Shown piece after piece: positions 29,395 through 37,005 of a stretch of 37,226 nt of DNA (positions are counted from its first letter, which is position 1; each line of letters starts with the position of its first letter). The position numbers and the translations under genes are program-made. The notes beneath the pieces were generated by a model that made no database searches, was not told the DNA's origin, and saw nothing but the letters and a program-made list of their open reading frames with translations. The stretch lies in assembly GCA_902781545.1 (NCBI GenBank), contig CACZJR010000024.1, positions 1 through 37,226 on the forward strand, given 5' to 3'. The stretch comes from an uncultured Spirochaetales bacterium (GTDB lineage: Bacteria; Spirochaetota; Spirochaetia; Sphaerochaetales; Sphaerochaetaceae).

Positions 29395-30627
29395 TTATTT
29401 CACGATCACGCGCATGAAGCGCTTCTTGCCTGCACGCAGGATCAGCTCACCGTCCTTGGCGCTGTCCTTTGTCACAACTGCCTTGACGTCAGTGACCTTA
29501 ACATCATCGATGAAGCAGCCTCCACCTTCAACAAGGCGCCTGACATCGCTCTTGGTAGCACCGAGCTTGGCCTCGAAGAAAAGATCAATGACTCCCTTGC
29601 CCTCGCCGATCTCAATCTCGACTGTAGGCATGGAGCTCTTGTCCCCGCCACCGCCGAAAGCAGCCTTTGCACCGGCAACGGCTTTGTCAGCCTCTTCCTG
29701 CCCGTGGATGATCTTGGTGATCTCATAGGCAAGGCGGGCCTTGGCGTCGTTGATGTTGCGTGCCGGATCTGAATACTCGGCAATCTCATCAAGGGACATG
29801 AATGTGAAGAGCTTCATGAACTTCACGGCATCGGCATCAGCGACATTGCGCCAGTACTGGTAGAAGTCATACGGGCTGTAGAGACCCGGGTCAAGGAACA
29901 CGGCTCCCTGCTCGCTCTTACCCATCTTCTTTCCGTCAGCCCTCATGATGAGGTTGAATGTCAGTCCGAAGCACTCCGGTCCGCCCATCCTCTGGATCAG
30001 GTCGATACCTGCAACGATGTTGCCCCACTGGTCCGCGCCGCCGATCTGAAGGCGGTTGTCGTAGTTCTTGTAGAGCATGTAGTAGTCGTATGACTGCAAC
30101 AGCTGGTAGTTGAACTCGATGAAGGACAGACCTCTCTCAAGGCGCTGCTTAACACCCTCGAATGTGAGCATTCTGTTGACAGAGAAATAGCGTCCGACAT
30201 CCCTGAGGAACTCGATGTAGTTCAGGCCCACAAGCCAGTCGGCATTGTTGACGATCCTTCCCTGGCCATAGCCTGCGGGAGGGACCTCGTCAAAATTGAC
30301 GACCTTTGCCAGCTGACCTGCGATGCGCTTCGCATTCTCCGCGATTGTCTCTGCCGGCAGGATCTTGCGCATCTCGGTCTTTCCGGAAGGATCTCCGATC
30401 AGGCCTGTTCCGCCTCCGACAAGTGCAAGAGGCTTGTGCCCGTGCTGCTGCAGATGATGCATGGCGAAGAACGGGACAATGTGGCCGACATGAAGTGACG
30501 GACCTGTCGGGTCGGTACCGCAGTAGAAGGTGACCGGACCATTGTCCATCAGGTCGGAGAGACCGTCTGTGTTTGTGCAGTCCTTGACGAAACCCCTGTC
30601 CATCAGGACCTGTAGTGCTTTATTCAT
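29395..30627 (-). CDS. tyrS: Tyrosyl-tRNA synthetase
   Basis: This class I synthetase charges tRNA-Tyr. The 410-residue protein has the HIGH motif as HVGH (46-49), the tyrosine-binding YDYYML and QIGGADQWGN region, the KMSKS motif as KMGKS near residue 235, and a C-terminal S4-like RNA-binding domain (LVEGGGCFIDD). Length is normal. It starts 2 bp after the glyS stop, with its ribosome binding site (AGAGAG) inside glyS, so it is the last gene of a synthetase operon. Confidence 0.95.
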   Translation of the reverse strand: MNKALQVLMDRGFVKDCTNTDGLSDLMDNGPVTFYCGTDPTGPSLHVGHIVPFFAMHHLQQHGHKPLALVGGGTGLIGDPSGKTEMRKILPAETIAENAKRIAGQLAKVVNFDEVPPAGYGQGRIVNNADWLVGLNYIEFLRDVGRYFSVNRMLTFEGVKQRLERGLSFIEFNYQLLQSYDYYMLYKNYDNRLQIGGADQWGNIVAGIDLIQRMGGPECFGLTFNLIMRADGKKMGKSEQGAVFLDPGLYSPYDFYQYWRNVADADAVKFMKLFTFMSLDEIAEYSDPARNINDAKARLAYEITKIIHGQEEADKAVAGAKAAFGGGGDKSSMPTVEIEIGEGKGVIDLFFEAKLGATKSDVRRLVEGGGCFIDDVKVTDVKAVVTKDSAKDGELILRAGKKRFMRVIVK

Positions 30628-30629
30628 AA

Positions 30630-31958
30630 TTAAACTCTCTTGTAATCCTTAGTGGCTTTCTTGATTGTGGCGACCAGCTCTGAGACAGGAACCCTGACCT
30701 GCTCCATTGAGTCACGGAACCTCAGAGTGACTGTGTTGTCGTTCATTGTGTCATAGTCGACGGTCACGCAATAAGGAGTTCCGATCTCATCCTGGCGGCG
30801 GTAACGGCGTCCGATAGCTCCGCTCTGGTCGTAGTATGTGGCAAAGTCGTCCCTGAGCTCATGCTCGAGCTTTGAGGCATACTCTGCAAGGCCGTCCTTC
30901 TTGACAAGAGGAAGAACCGCGACTGTGACAGGAGCGATGCTCGGATGGAAGTGCAGGACTGTCCTGATATCACCCTCGGCCACAACCTCCTCATCGTAGG
31001 CATCTGAAAGGGCCATGAGGACGTTTCTGGTAAGACCTGCTGAGGTCTCAACGACGTACGGGATGTACTTCTCGTTCGTCTCAGGATCAAGGTAGGTCAT
31101 ATCCTTGCCGCTGAACTTCTGGTGCTGTGTCAGGTCATAGTCAGTCCTGCTGTGGACTCCCTCGAGCTCCTGCCATCCCATCGGGAACAGGAACTGGATG
31201 TCAAAGGCGTCCTTGGCGTAGAATGCCAGCTCATCCGGTCCGTGCTGATGCCATCTGAGGTGCTCCGGATGGATTCCGATCCTGTTGACGTAGAAGTTCA
31301 TCCTCTGCTCTCTCCAGTACGGGAACCACTGCTCGTCTGTGCCCGGCTTGCAGAACCACTGCATCTCCATCTGCTCGAACTCACATGAGCGGAAGATGAA
31401 GTTCTTGGTTGTGATCTCGTTGCGGAAGCTCTTTCCGACCTGTGCAATCCCGAACGGGACCTTCACACGTGATGATGAGACGACGTTCTTGAAGTCAACG
31501 TAGATTCCCTGTGCTGTCTCAGGTCTGAGATAGATTGTTGAGGCGGCATCGACATCAGCTCCGATATGTGTGGCGAACATGAGGTTGAAGTTCCTCGGGG
31601 CCGTGAATGTGCCCTTGTTGCCGCATACCGGACACGGTGCGTTCAGGTCAATCTGGTCTGCTCTGAAGCGGCTCTTGCACTGCTTGCAGTCAACCATCGG
31701 GTCAGTGAAGTTGCTCACATGGCCGCTGGCCTCCCATACTCTGGGATGCATGAGAATAGAGGCATCGAGTCCGACGATGTTGTCATGGAGCTGTATCATC
31801 TCCTTCCACCATGCGTCACGGATGTTGTTCTTGAGCTGCACACCCAGCGGACCGTAGTCATAGGCGCCGTTCAGGCCCCCGTAAATCTCACTGCTCTGGA
31901 AAATGAATCCACGTCTTTTGCAAAGTGATACGATCTTATCCATTGTAACTTCAGCCAT
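30630..31958 (-). CDS. glyS: Glycyl-tRNA synthetase, homodimeric type
   Basis: This class II synthetase charges tRNA-Gly. The 442-residue single-chain alpha2 type has FIFQSSEIYGGLNGAYDYGP, a zinc-type CKQC...CPVC pair near 95-118, motif 2 FRNEITTKNFIFRSCEFEQME, and motif 3 GLTRNVLMAL. A C-terminal anticodon domain (DEIGTPYCVTVD) follows. This form differs from the two-subunit GlyQ/GlyS of many bacteria. ATG at 31958 follows AAGAGG by 6 nt and overlaps the gltX end by 8 bases. An earlier in-frame start would add six residues without a ribosome binding site. Confidence 0.95.
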   Translation of the reverse strand: MAEVTMDKIVSLCKRRGFIFQSSEIYGGLNGAYDYGPLGVQLKNNIRDAWWKEMIQLHDNIVGLDASILMHPRVWEASGHVSNFTDPMVDCKQCKSRFRADQIDLNAPCPVCGNKGTFTAPRNFNLMFATHIGADVDAASTIYLRPETAQGIYVDFKNVVSSSRVKVPFGIAQVGKSFRNEITTKNFIFRSCEFEQMEMQWFCKPGTDEQWFPYWREQRMNFYVNRIGIHPEHLRWHQHGPDELAFYAKDAFDIQFLFPMGWQELEGVHSRTDYDLTQHQKFSGKDMTYLDPETNEKYIPYVVETSAGLTRNVLMALSDAYDEEVVAEGDIRTVLHFHPSIAPVTVAVLPLVKKDGLAEYASKLEHELRDDFATYYDQSGAIGRRYRRQDEIGTPYCVTVDYDTMNDNTVTLRFRDSMEQVRVPVSELVATIKKATKDYKRV

Positions 31959-33426
31959 TGTTAACCTCTTTCTCAAGTATTGCTATCGCGCGCTCAATGC
32001 GCCTGTAACTCTCTTCTTTGCCCAACAGACGGATACAGCTGAACGGCGGCGGGCTCACGGCCATTCCTGTAACAGCGGTTCTGAGCGGATTGAAGACTCC
32101 CGCATTCTTGATTCCGAGCTTCTGAGCAAGGTCCATGAGATCCTGCTGGAGCTCCTCGTCGTTCTTTCCGGCATCAAGGCCGGCCTTCACTGTCTCATAC
32201 ACGTTCTTAAGCGCATTCAGTGTTCCGGCGGCATCCATCTTCTTCGGAATCAAAAGCGCAGCCTCGGGCTCACCCTTGTCCTTCAGGAACTCGACCATCG
32301 GGACGATGTCCGACAGAAGCGTGATCCTGTCGCGGATTCCCGGGACAAATGCCACAAGGCGGTCACGTGAGCTCTCATCCAGAAGACCTGCGTCCTTCAG
32401 ATAAGGCATCAGGAGATCTGCAAGCTCCTCATCGCCCTTGCGGCGGATGTACTGGGCGTTGAACCAGTCAAGCTTCTGGTAGTCGAATACTCCGGGAGCC
32501 TTGTTGATCTTCTCAAGGGAGAAGCACTTCTCAAGCTCCTCACGTGTGAAGAACTCCTTCTCTCCGTCATATGACCAGCCTACCAGGCTCACATAGTTCA
32601 GCAGTGCCTCCGGCAGATAGCCTTTCTGCCTGAAGTCCCTGACACTTGTGGAGCCGTGGCGCTTTGAGAGCTTGTGCCCGTCATTTCCCATGACCATTGG
32701 CAGATGGCAGTAGGTCGGAACCTGCCAGCCGAATGCCTCATAGAGGATCACGTGAAGCGGTCCGGAAGGAATCCACTCCTGTGCCCTCATGATATGGGTG
32801 ATTCCCATCAGATGGTCGTCTATGACATTCGCAAGATGATATGTCGGGAATCCGTCGGACTTGAGCAGGACAGGATCCGGACTGATGTCCTTGTTGTCCC
32901 TTGTGATGTCACCCATCAGGACATCGTGGAAGGTCGTGCTTCCCTCTCTGGGAACCTTGAGCCTGATGACAGGGCGGATACCCTGGGCCTCAAGCTCAGC
33001 CCTCTGCTCTGCGGTGAGATCCCTGCAGTGTCCGTCATATCCCTGGACAGGACTCTTCTCCTCCATCTGCTTCTGTCTGAGGGCCTCAAGGCGCTCGGCT
33101 GAGCAGTAGCAGTAATAGGCCTTGCCCATATCAACGAGCTTCTTGGCGTATTCCTGGTAGATGGCGAATCTCTCACTCTGGATGTATGGTCCGTACGGGC
33201 CGCCTACAACAGGGCCCTCATCCCATTTGACACCAAGCCATTCCAGGGTATCGTAAAGGTCCTGGAGAGACTCGTCGCTGTAACGCTCGCGGTCGGTATC
33301 CTCAACCCTGAGGATGAACTTGCCGCCGTTCGCCTTGGCGAAGAAATAGTTGAAAAGCGCTGTCCTGACACCGCCGATGTGCTGAAGGCCTGTCGGCGAT
33401 GGTGCATATCTGACTCTTACACTCAT
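31951..33426 (-). CDS. gltX: Glutamyl-tRNA synthetase
   Basis: This class I synthetase charges tRNA-Glu (and possibly tRNA-Gln in organisms lacking GlnRS). The 491-residue protein begins SVRVRYAPSPTG with the HIGH motif as HIGG (16-19). It has KLSKRHG near residue 250 and helical anticodon-binding domains in the C-terminal half. ATG at 33426 follows GGAG by 7 nt and is preferred over a GTG four codons upstream. First of three overlapping or abutting synthetase genes. Confidence 0.95.
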   Translation of the reverse strand: MSVRVRYAPSPTGLQHIGGVRTALFNYFFAKANGGKFILRVEDTDRERYSDESLQDLYDTLEWLGVKWDEGPVVGGPYGPYIQSERFAIYQEYAKKLVDMGKAYYCYCSAERLEALRQKQMEEKSPVQGYDGHCRDLTAEQRAELEAQGIRPVIRLKVPREGSTTFHDVLMGDITRDNKDISPDPVLLKSDGFPTYHLANVIDDHLMGITHIMRAQEWIPSGPLHVILYEAFGWQVPTYCHLPMVMGNDGHKLSKRHGSTSVRDFRQKGYLPEALLNYVSLVGWSYDGEKEFFTREELEKCFSLEKINKAPGVFDYQKLDWFNAQYIRRKGDEELADLLMPYLKDAGLLDESSRDRLVAFVPGIRDRITLLSDIVPMVEFLKDKGEPEAALLIPKKMDAAGTLNALKNVYETVKAGLDAGKNDEELQQDLMDLAQKLGIKNAGVFNPLRTAVTGMAVSPPPFSCIRLLGKEESYRRIERAIAILEKEVNNG

Positions 33427-33515
33427 TTTAAACTCCACATGGGTATTCCCATGACTGTATATTTGTATCGTAAATCGAGGTTTCTTTCAATGTATAAGGG
33501 GAAAGGCCCCGGGTC

Positions 33516-34418
33516 TTACGACCAGGGACCTTCCTTCAAAGCCTTCAGCAGGTCAATGCGGGAGCGGACTCCCATCTTGCTGAAGATGTTGGCAACATGG
33601 TTGTTCACCGTGTTGACCGAGATTGACAGCTCCTGTGCAATCTCCTTGTTGGTATAACCTTCGCAGATGAGCTGCACTACCGTGAACTCACGCTCTGATA
33701 TCTTGTAATGTGACAGGCTCTCATAATTGAGCTCCGGTTTGCTTTCCGACTCCTCCTTGTCAAGTCCGAACCTTATGTAGTTGTAGACTATGATGATTAT
33801 GGAGAAAGCCAGAACGTATATCGGGTAGCTGAATTCCGCAATCCATTCCACATAAAGCGAAAGGATCGAGAGCGGGATCAGCGAGAGGCTCACGATGTTG
33901 ATCGACAGCGCGACACCTCTTGCAGATTGATCCTCTATGCTCTTCAGGTTCACCCACAGCGTGATGATGCAGTAGACATACATCCCGAGGAAGATCAGGG
34001 TCTGGGAGAGATTCACCCAGAACGAGAAGACCTCGTTGTTGACAATCAGGGCGGCAAGCCCTATGCCGAAATATGTCATTGCCAGAGGGGTGAACCTCAG
34101 CAACTGCACCTTTCTCCAAGGCTTGGCTATCACCCAGCTCAGGAAGAACGGAAGATACACTATCACAAAGCTCATGCTGGCCATCATGGCGGTCTTGAAT
34201 ATGAAGTTGAATACAACCAGCAGATTCTCCGGCATGAAGAACAGCGATATCTTTGATGCAAGATACAGCACCATGATTCCTATAAGACAGGACTGGAAGA
34301 CGATGTACCGTACACCCCAGTCCGTCTTATGAAGAATCTGTGAGGCAATGGCTAATGCCAGAGCCATACAGGAGACCGCAATTGAAGCTGTAAAAGTGAA
34401 CAGCAGAAAACCATTCAT
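33516..34418 (-). CDS. Membrane-anchored LuxR-family transcriptional regulator
   Basis: The first ~215 residues of this 300-residue protein contain seven predicted membrane helices with short loops and no recognisable sensor domain. A charged linker (EESESKPELNYES) leads to a C-terminal LuxR/GerE helix-turn-helix (239-295: ISEREFTVVQLICEG, TNKEIAQELSISVNTVNNH, VRSRIDLL). The layout fits a one-component regulator that senses a membrane or envelope signal and binds DNA directly. ATG at 34418 has GGAG 7 nt upstream. It lies 27 bp after the RloB-like gene and about 90 bp before gltX on the same strand. Its targets are unknown. Confidence 0.85.
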   Translation of the reverse strand: MNGFLLFTFTASIAVSCMALALAIASQILHKTDWGVRYIVFQSCLIGIMVLYLASKISLFFMPENLLVVFNFIFKTAMMASMSFVIVYLPFFLSWVIAKPWRKVQLLRFTPLAMTYFGIGLAALIVNNEVFSFWVNLSQTLIFLGMYVYCIITLWVNLKSIEDQSARGVALSINIVSLSLIPLSILSLYVEWIAEFSYPIYVLAFSIIIIVYNYIRFGLDKEESESKPELNYESLSHYKISEREFTVVQLICEGYTNKEIAQELSISVNTVNNHVANIFSKMGVRSRIDLLKALKEGPWS

Positions 34419-34445: not shown

Positions 34446-35087
34446 TCACTGCGCAAGAACCTTGTTGTTGTGTGAGAGATCAGCGTCTCCGCAGATTTCC
34501 TTGATGTCGTCATACATCTCAACAAAAGTTGTGGCAGGGACACCGTTCTTCTTCTCGGCGATCTTGTTGTATGCGCTGGCATTGTTCACGGCCATGGCGA
34601 AGAACTTGAACAGCTTGAGGTGGATCTCACTGCCCTCGCCTGTCATGAACTCGGCTGTGGGCTTGTAGCCGGGGAAGTACTTGGCGATCTGCTGGTCGAA
34701 CTGTGATGCGTTCTCGACATAGAAGTTCGGAGCCTGCTTTGTCAGATGCAGGTACAGCCACATGCTGATGTTCGGGGTTGTCCAACCGAGCTTGACCTTC
34801 CTTGACTCAGCAAGATCCTTGAGACCCTCAAGGTCAGCCGGCTCGAGATTGAAGTCGCTCAGTCCGAAGACTGCCCATGCGGATGCGAACTTTCCGGCGA
34901 TACGTGCCTTTCCGGTTGCCTTGATGAAACTCTCCACAGAGTCTGAGGGGATGTACTCGACAGTCATGTTGACATATCTGCAGTCCTTCCTGACCCTTGA
35001 GAAATATGCTGCGATTGCTGCATTGGCAGTTGAGATGAGAATTGTCTTCCTTGGAAGTATCGGTGTTCTCTTTCTGGTCATGGTCAT
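34446..35087 (-). CDS. RloB-like protein with a degenerate active site
   Basis: The frame of this 213-residue protein matches RloB: a basic N-terminus, strand ILISTANAAIAAYF (16-29), WAVFGLSDF (71-79), GWTTPNISMWLYLHL (101-115), then helices. In RloB as I know it these positions read roughly EGxxTE...Y, VFDxDEF and SNPxFExWLLLHF; those Glu, Asp and Asn residues form the TOPRIM-like metal site. Here they are Thr/Ala, Gly/Ser and Thr/Ser, so nuclease activity should be lost. The start overlaps the ATPase gene's stop by 4 bases, which implies a coupled pair. The assignment rests on the pattern and on the partner; a plain unknown protein is the alternative. Confidence 0.6.
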   Translation of the reverse strand: MTMTRKRTPILPRKTILISTANAAIAAYFSRVRKDCRYVNMTVEYIPSDSVESFIKATGKARIAGKFASAWAVFGLSDFNLEPADLEGLKDLAESRKVKLGWTTPNISMWLYLHLTKQAPNFYVENASQFDQQIAKYFPGYKPTAEFMTGEGSEIHLKLFKFFAMAVNNASAYNKIAEKKNGVPATTFVEMYDDIKEICGDADLSHNNKVLAQ

Positions 35088-36343
35088 GCCTCCTCATTGA
35101 CAAAGCGGAACTCGCTTGTGATTGGAAGTGCTCCGAATGCACCGCTCTCATACATGGCACGGATCTTTCCGTTTGCCCCGATCCTGTAGTTGCTAAGCGG
35201 ATAGTAGACTGTTGATCCGAGACTGTCCTTCTCTGCGAAATAGATGCTGTCTCTTCTGAGGAGACCGTCCTCAAGCAGTGTCGGGTTGCAGTCTGCGACA
35301 ATCATCTGGCTTGCGCGCTTGCAGCCGTTTGTGAATACGCTAGTCAGATAGATCAGGACCTCCGGATGCAGGAACATGCCGTAGTCGTCAATGATCAGCA
35401 CCTTGGGCTTTGTGAATGCCTCAAAGAATGCAAGTGCGAGGAGCGAAAGTCTCTTCATTGAGAGGCTCTCTTTGGCATAAAGGCTGGACATTGTGGCGTT
35501 CTTGTTGGAGTGGAAGAAAATGACCATGTCGCCTTCGTTCGACTGCACGAACTTTCCGTCCTTGTTGTATCCGACCCTGATGTCCCTGATGTCTGTGACG
35601 TCCATGCTCCAGAAGAAGTTGATCAGCTGATCCTTCCATGCCGGATGAGCATTGAGCATTGATGCGATGTAGCGCTCTGATGAGGACCCCACACCCATCG
35701 GGAGGATGTCCAGGACCTCTGTGAACCACTTGTAGACCTCTGAGCAGGTCTCACCGCCCTTGTCCGCGGCGTTCTTGATGAAGGAGTGCCTGCAGTCAAC
35801 TGCCTTCTCGTTTCTCTTCTTGTCGCCTCTGTAGAGCTTTCCCCAGCGGACCTTGTACTGAACCTCGTCATCGAGTGAAGCGGTTGCGACTCTGTCGAAC
35901 ATGAGCTTTCTGGATGTTCCGAAGTTGTAGTAGAGCTTCTCCTCCCAGATATGATCAAGGTCAGCCTTGAGGGTGTATGTTGCGAATACCTCAGGCTCCT
36001 CTTCGGAGACGAACTCCCTGAGAAGGAATCTGACTGTGAACTCTGCCGGCTGGTTCTTTACATCATTGTATGCGAACAGTGATCCTCCGAGGACTCTTCT
36101 GAGAGGATTGGCCTCACTTGCCTCGGCGGTGATGACTCCCTTGACTGCCTCAAGGGCTCTGACAACGGTGCTCTTTCCTACACCGTTCGGTCCGATGACA
36201 GCTGTGCTCCTGAGGATCTTCAGCTTGTCAGAGATGACCTGGACCTTGGACTGGTCCATTCTCTTGTCCTTAAGGGCAGCAAATGAAACTGTCTGCGGAT
36301 CCCTTACCGACCTGAAATTGGCCATTGTAATATCAATAAGCAC
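35084..36343 (-). CDS. RloA-like AAA15-family ATPase, degenerate motifs
   Basis: This 419-residue protein follows the AAA15/RloA plan: N-terminal ITMANFRSVRD, Walker A GPNGVGKST (51-59, usually GANASGKS), ESLSMKRL (292-299, usually ESDGTKRL), and Walker B VLIIDDYGMFLHPE (315-328, usually IIDELDxSLHP). The switch region is VADCN (349-353, usually TTHN). The C-terminal LLRRDSIYFAEKD and GAFGALP blocks are well kept. ATP binding looks possible, but the catalytic Glu is Asp, the signature Gly is Ser and the switch His is gone, so hydrolysis may be slow or absent. It starts with GTG behind a perfect AAAGGAGG at 6 nt. It couples to the RloB-like gene by ATGA. Confidence 0.72.
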   Translation of the reverse strand: MLIDITMANFRSVRDPQTVSFAALKDKRMDQSKVQVISDKLKILRSTAVIGPNGVGKSTVVRALEAVKGVITAEASEANPLRRVLGGSLFAYNDVKNQPAEFTVRFLLREFVSEEEPEVFATYTLKADLDHIWEEKLYYNFGTSRKLMFDRVATASLDDEVQYKVRWGKLYRGDKKRNEKAVDCRHSFIKNAADKGGETCSEVYKWFTEVLDILPMGVGSSSERYIASMLNAHPAWKDQLINFFWSMDVTDIRDIRVGYNKDGKFVQSNEGDMVIFFHSNKNATMSSLYAKESLSMKRLSLLALAFFEAFTKPKVLIIDDYGMFLHPEVLIYLTSVFTNGCKRASQMIVADCNPTLLEDGLLRRDSIYFAEKDSLGSTVYYPLSNYRIGANGKIRAMYESGAFGALPITSEFRFVNEEA

Positions 36344-36369: not shown

Positions 36370-37005
36370 TCACAGATTCAGGCTCTCCATCCTGGCGCAG
36401 ATCTGCGGAAACGCATCAAGACAAGCCCTGAGCTTCCCCGGAAGACTTCTGTCGCCATGGTTGTCATCCGCTATGATGTCAACCAGGTCCCTCTGAATGT
36501 ACGGCATTGCCGACTTATTCTCTATGCCTGACACATTGACCTGTATCCAGGCACCCATATCCTTGAGCATCTGAAACGTCTCTCCCTGCGGCCTCAGCCA
36601 CGGGTAGCGCTCCACGTGGGCGATTATCGGCTCCAGCCCCTGGTCCAGAAGCTGCTGCAGCTTGCGGTCCAGTCCGATCGGCTTGGCCGATACCGGGAAC
36701 TCCACAAGGGCATACCTTCCGGCAATCGGGATTGTCCTGACCTCTGTCTGGCTGCCCAGGTACAGCTCCGCTCCGAGTATCGTGCGGATCCCCACCTTGG
36801 CCGCATCCTCCGATGCAAGACGGAAGTTCTCCCTGATGTTCTCCACCCTTGTCTTCACCGTCGGGTGAAAGATGTGCGGCGTCAGAACCAGGGTATCTAT
36901 CCCGTGCTTCCTGTACTCCAGAAGAAGAGCCCTGTACAGCTCCCTGGTCTGGACTCCATGGTCTACACCGAACAGAAGATGTGAATGCAGGTCCAAACGG
37001 TTCAT
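36370..37005 (-). CDS. CpsB/YwqE-like PHP-domain phosphatase
   Basis: This 211-residue PHP-domain protein resembles the manganese-dependent tyrosine phosphatases CpsB/CapC/YwqE that control polysaccharide synthesis kinases. Visible motifs are DLHSHLLFGVDHGV at the N-terminus (usually HxHxLPGIDDGA, so one Asp is His), TPHIFHP, GAELYLGS, HVERYPWL and ADDNHGD (usually SDAHN). The metal-site changes may alter metal use. No ribosome binding site is evident; an AT-rich TAAAAT lies just before the ATG. The next gene starts 26 bp downstream, so it may head the operon with the RloA/RloB-like pair. No matching tyrosine kinase gene is seen in the window. Confidence 0.78.
   Translation of the reverse strand: MNRLDLHSHLLFGVDHGVQTRELYRALLLEYRKHGIDTLVLTPHIFHPTVKTRVENIRENFRLASEDAAKVGIRTILGAELYLGSQTEVRTIPIAGRYALVEFPVSAKPIGLDRKLQQLLDQGLEPIIAHVERYPWLRPQGETFQMLKDMGAWIQVNVSGIENKSAMPYIQRDLVDIIADDNHGDRSLPGKLRACLDAFPQICARMESLNL

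Follow-up and report, generated by a model that had tools for sequence, protein, structure and literature searches.

Two overlapping genes on the minus strand of a contig from an uncultured Spirochaetales bacterium are laid out like an anti-phage pair of ATPase and TOPRIM-type nuclease, and key residues of both active sites are substituted. The question raised by this locus is what such a pair does in the cell. The window, the whole stretch of DNA that was analysed, is 37,226 nucleotides long. Both frames are open and overlap by ATGA, as the first-pass annotation had read them:

35084..36343, minus strand: RloA/AbiLi-type ABC-class ATPase, 419 aa (Pfam AAA_21, 1.9e-11; PADLOC AbiLi, 1.3e-54)
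34446..35087, minus strand: RloB/AbiLii-like partner without TOPRIM acids, 213 aa (Pfam RloB, 6.6e-9, over the cut-off)

The GTG start of the ATPase at 36343 agrees with the family alignment, in which 79/83 rows have M1. The AAA_21, AbiLi, and RloB matches back the annotation's assignment to the RloA/RloB type; the partner scores 36.7 bits against RloB (PF13707), for which the curated cut-off is 31.5. Its sole PADLOC match is a weak one to AbiLii (7e-4). The ATPase additionally matches the PADLOC AriA profile (1.8e-11), and no AriB profile in PADLOC matches the partner, so the PARIS effector is not recognized here. With an AbiLi-type ATPase upstream of an AbiLii/RloB-type gene, the layout is that of AbiL, and the window pair is an AbiL/RloA-RloB-type ATPase and partner.

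The predicted structure of the ATPase (AF2, pLDDT 86.9) retrieves PtuA, Rad50, SMC, and OLD in Foldseek, with E values of about 1e-10 to 1e-8. Septu PtuA, OLD, and Rad50-SMC share the ATPase fold and have different partners; their signature and Glu motifs are normal. The active site of the window ATPase is built from the following motifs:

36167..36193, minus strand: intact Walker A GPNGVGKST, residues 51-59 (G51, N53, G56, and K57 invariant in 77/77 family members)
35447..35470, minus strand: signature motif ESLSMKRL, residues 292-299, with Ser295 in place of Gly (all 77 family members have S, all 64 canonical proteins G)
35378..35398, minus strand: Walker B LIIDDYG, residues 316-322, with Asp320 at the site of the catalytic Glu (all 77 family members have D, all 64 canonical proteins E)
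35282..35299, minus strand: H-loop position VADCNP, residues 349-354, with Cys352 in place of His (DCNP common to all 77 family members; 59/64 canonical proteins have H)

Measured against 64 canonical RloA-type ATPases, the substitutions quoted in the annotation (ESLSMKRL, IIDD, VADCN) are real. Walker A and the invariant Walker B aspartate D319, which are typical of ABC-class ATPases, are retained; the signature glycine, the catalytic glutamate, and the H-loop histidine have given way to S295, D320, and C352. These three residues, together with D351, N353, and P354, are common to all 77 alignable ATPases of the family. As far as the motifs allow a judgment, the ATPase probably keeps ATP binding, and its hydrolysis of ATP is uncertain.

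The partner differs from canonical RloB in three former catalytic stretches and in two motifs of its own:

35001..35033, minus strand: STANAAIAAYF in place of EGxTExxYF, residues 19-29 (E21 in 0/79 family members; follows predicted strand 1)
34854..34868, minus strand: FGLSD in place of FDxD, residues 74-78 (D75 in 4/79 family members and 57/57 canonical proteins; end of predicted strand 3)
34764..34781, minus strand: TTPNIS in place of PxFE, residues 103-108 (column 108 highly variable, entropy rank 177 of 207)
34968..34991, minus strand: new conserved motif RKDCRYVN, residues 33-40 (wherever present, D35 and R37 do not vary; C36 in 74/79)
34467..34493, minus strand: new C-terminal motif CGDADLSHN, residues 199-207 (C199, G200, and N207 in 79/79 family members)

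The annotation's partner substitutions (STANAAIAAYF, FGLSD, TTPNIS) likewise hold against 57 canonical RloB proteins. In these, position 21 is Glu in 54 and Asp in 2 of the 56 with a residue there, D75 is present in all 57, position 77 is Asp in 51 and Glu in 6, and position 108 is Glu in 55 and Asp in 2. The window partner has lost E21, D75, D77, and E108 and thereby the whole TOPRIM-type set of E, DxD, and E. Across the family, the first acid is mostly replaced by Ala or Ser, and positions 77 and 108 vary. For conservation, the columns of the four lost nuclease acids rank 57, 64, 135, and 177 of 207, which is middling to low, and the columns of the new motifs rank near the top. D35, R37, H114, G152, C199, G200, and N207 are invariant in the family partners. 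The RKDCRY motif is unconserved in canonical RloB, and the tail with C199-N207 is mostly missing from it (a median of 4 residues left versus 15-22 here). Only the loss of E25, the second Glu of EGxTE, is special to the genus of the window genome, where it is kept in 0/11 members versus 62/68 other family members; the other substitutions are family-wide. Within this genus, the partner is about 60-69% identical to that of the window and the ATPase 78-87%, the nearest relative (98-99%) set aside.

The AF2 model of the partner (pLDDT 90.3) finds the viral RloB-like protein A0A8S5LTA7 in Foldseek (E 3.8e-8, TM 0.65), which places it in the RloB fold; a search of the PDB with the partner by sequence and by fold gave no significant match. 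The structure search thus pointed to no unrelated fold, and the acids are not relocated, in keeping with the RloB scaffold that the annotation had proposed. Strand 1 is formed by residues 16-20 and strand 3 by residues 69-75 in the model, so that the lost acids would lie directly after strand 1 and at the end of strand 3, where a TOPRIM-type site is expected. For the PARIS effector AriB a two-metal TOPRIM site has been proposed, and its E26A mutant is inactive (PMC12409363). By this analogy, the RloB-type nuclease chemistry has very probably been lost from the partner. The annotation's view that both active sites look dismantled goes too far: it stands for the nuclease acids; in the ATPase the site is altered, with ATP binding residues kept and the substituted residues strictly fixed.

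The relation to known systems can be drawn from these features. AbiL of Lactococcus lactis shares the gene order of an ATPase followed by an RloB-family gene and supplies the best PADLOC models for both proteins. AbiLii has been described as the toxic TOPRIM effector of an abortive infection system carried on a plasmid (PMC10440598), whereas the window pair sits at a fixed chromosomal locus and its partner, judged by sequence, is not a catalytically competent TOPRIM effector. The RloA/RloB pairs of phages, plasmids, and other spirochaetes are alike in their Pfam RloB match over the cut-off, their gene order, and homology along most of both proteins, but have G295, E320, H352, E21, D75, D77, and E108 and are devoid of the RKDCRY and CG.AD..N motifs. 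PARIS (AriA/AriB) also joins an ATPase to a TOPRIM-type partner; in the window pair, however, the first TOPRIM acid itself is replaced.

Genomes were sampled within one spirochaete class. The partner is detected in 84/150 related genomes, in 79/91 sampled genomes of the family, usually as a single copy, and in 11/11 of the genus, window genome included. The ATPase adjoins it in essentially all loci. Twelve of the 91 family genomes are devoid of the pair; four of these are at least 90% complete (genera g7, g8, and g19), and the other eight are less complete. Missing catalytic residues might be expected of a decaying pseudogene pair or an assembly artefact. That explanation is almost inconceivable here and is refuted by the common substitutions, the open frames, and the low omega: orthologous pairs with intact frames and matching substitutions occur family-wide, in 77-79 species (77/77 ATPases with the altered motifs, 0/79 partners with E21), and omega against the closest relative is 0.015 for the ATPase and 0.017 for the partner. 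The annotation had rightly set simple decay aside. Family medians are 0.08 and 0.14, respectively, compared with 0.07-0.20 for the neighbouring synthetases (Nei-Gojobori estimates, saturated for distant pairs). Such strong purifying selection fits a housekeeping role and a lasting defence role alike.

The canonical relatives (57-64 proteins from phages, plasmids, and other spirochaetes) retain essentially all catalytic residues. Two sister families hold an intermediate form, with ESLG, DD, and GVD in the ATPase and E25 and E108 in the partner, from which it follows that the Walker B, H-loop, and first TOPRIM substitutions predate the change of the signature motif. In FastTree phylogenies the pair clade is monophyletic with a support of 1.0 and a stem of more than 1 substitution/site in both gene trees, so both subunits changed together long ago. 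Common descent with the AbiL/RloA-RloB class is established. In the pair tree every family genus represented by at least two members forms a clade of its own, weakly supported for g3. Pair distances correlate with gltX+glyS distances (r 0.80), and 28/33 strongly supported splits are common to both; as gltX and glyS belong to the locus itself, it is the genus labels that serve as the independent check. The pair is vertically inherited at a fixed chromosomal place.

Flagellin is lacking in the 11 family genomes and the 4 sister-family genomes checked for it and occurs in all 4 genomes of f24, a further family; a treponeme host was discounted on this ground. Sphaerochaeta is described as nonmotile (PMC6284720). 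The pair-bearing lineage is one of flagellin-less spirochaetes, made up of the window family (probably Sphaerochaetaceae) together with its two sister families. Rumen 'Spirochaetales' MAGs are among the near relatives, and a literature search on RloB in spirochaetes found nothing. We give an even chance to the reading that the pair is an ancient AbiL/RloA-RloB offshoot, domesticated in this lineage as an ATP-binding, nuclease-dead module.

The annotation had also suggested an immunity or regulatory partner of an active RloAB/PARIS system elsewhere in the genome. About half of the genomes do carry extra RloB-family matches, which would suit this idea; by match counts, about half of the pair-bearing genomes have none, and in the window genome the single RloB-family match is the partner itself, so this search revealed no active paralogue there. 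Across 91 genomes, the pair and canonical RloB copies show no association (Fisher p 0.36; copy numbers are match counts, which split genes can inflate). The canonical copies are patchy in the family, unlike the pair. The absence in the window genome and the lack of association largely refute the immunity role, which is left very improbable; a sensor, scaffold, or regulator role, named in the same annotation, is possible. One family genome (G053) has eight RloB-family matches, some of them possibly fragments.

A more serious rival holds that the pair still serves defence: it would sense phages and act by other means than RloB nuclease chemistry, such as those of a guard, decoy, or recruiter. 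Its nearest profiles are defence systems, and the scaffolds and the partner geometry are retained. The distribution is nevertheless not the patchy or mobile one of defence genes, nor is the context an island: the near-universal, single-copy, vertically inherited pair occupies a fixed site among core genes in 79/91 genomes, in contrast to the patchy canonical copies. With the ATPase as query, viral contigs, phages, and plasmids yielded distant relatives only, mostly at about 20-28% identity, and those aligned have canonical motifs; the partner had no match in the mobile collections. No relative of the altered type was found in the phage, plasmid, and viral collections searched, and a continued defence role is judged unlikely. 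Among the canonical pairs, one on a Persicobacter plasmid (L129) shares its stretch with cas9 and an AbiEi antitoxin gene.

Alternatively, the pair may be a re-tooled enzyme with one or both active sites run on other residues, namely Asp320/Cys352 in the ATPase and the new Cys/Asp/His/Asn motifs in the partner. The fixation of S295, D320, D351, C352, N353, and P354 in 77/77 ATPases is stricter than a dead site would predict, and invariant Cys, Asp, His, and Asn residues have arisen in the partner. Against this, no family partner has E21, and its residues 77 and 108 are free to vary, so that TOPRIM two-metal chemistry cannot persist as such; the proposal is rated quite improbable.

The neighbourhood offers candidates for a cellular role of the domesticated module:

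36370..37005, minus strand: CpsB/CapC-family PHP phosphatase, 26 bp upstream of the ATPase (Pfam PF19567, 6.2e-32; flanks of 61/82 loci)
33516..34418, minus strand: predicted multi-pass membrane protein ending in a LuxR-type HTH domain, 27 bp downstream of the partner (Pfam GerE, 1.6e-18; hydropathy; 72/82 loci)
29395..33438, minus strand: gltX, glyS, and tyrS, which form the conserved downstream frame (synteny; synthetase identity by sequence inspection)

Neighbours were checked by profile in 82 loci, and contig ends make these counts lower bounds. The conserved run consists of pdxA, a lipoprotein-like gene, a CobO-type gene, the PHP phosphatase, the ATPase, the partner, the membrane LuxR gene, an alpha/beta hydrolase, gltX, glyS, and tyrS. 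In some genera a block is lost: genomes of g8, g12, and g19 keep lipoprotein-LuxR-gltX and miss the CobO-type, PHP, ATPase, and partner genes, and of these four G016 (g7) keeps only the CobO-type gene. These natural deletions (L230-L236; g7, g8, g12, and g19), with gltX still downstream, are useful empty-site controls. In the gltX+glyS tree the genus of the window genome is nested among pair-less genera, which implies either repeated loss, the simpler account, or a single loss followed by regain at the original site. Together with the 12/91 absences, this nesting means that the pair is dispensable in some lineages.

That PHP is lost along with the pair hints that they are functionally linked. 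Genus g13 keeps the pair with PHP and LuxR both absent, and LuxR is kept in genomes without the pair, so PHP and LuxR are not obligate partners. The LuxR-type protein, a predicted membrane-bound regulator, stays beside gltX even there. The PHP protein reads GVDHG where relatives have GIDDG/AIDDG, and the phosphatase may also be altered in the genus of the window genome.

Somewhat short of an even chance is the fuller form of the domestication reading, in which a defence pair was recruited in the ancestor of the flagellin-less spirochaetes as a nuclease-dead, ATP-binding housekeeping module whose new surfaces serve regulation and not defence. A tentative mechanism, which as a whole we consider possible and yet doubtful, would start with ATP binding by the ATPase, which would dimerise or oligomerise as other ABC-class ATPases do, with slow or no hydrolysis. 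It would keep the nuclease-dead RloB-like protein bound, and the nucleotide state or a cellular signal would alter the complex. The new conserved surface of the partner would then touch a cellular target, and no nucleic acid would be cut; the linked PHP phosphatase and the membrane LuxR-type protein are the first candidate targets. In AbiL-type systems the ATPase is described as an antitoxin that neutralises its TOPRIM partner (PMC10440598), and a complex kept without cutting would fit an ATP-gated scaffold. The function is perhaps that of a regulatory scaffold of this kind tied to its PHP/LuxR neighbours.

Annotation by defence profiles (AbiL, RloB) would call this core locus anti-phage, though its effector is without catalytic residues. 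The exaptation of defence genes for cell functions in bacteria is often proposed and seldom shown. The spirochaete pair is a clean test case for it, as both subunits were rebuilt in parallel and family-wide, with canonical relatives whose catalytic residues are retained and the deletions in sister genera as controls.
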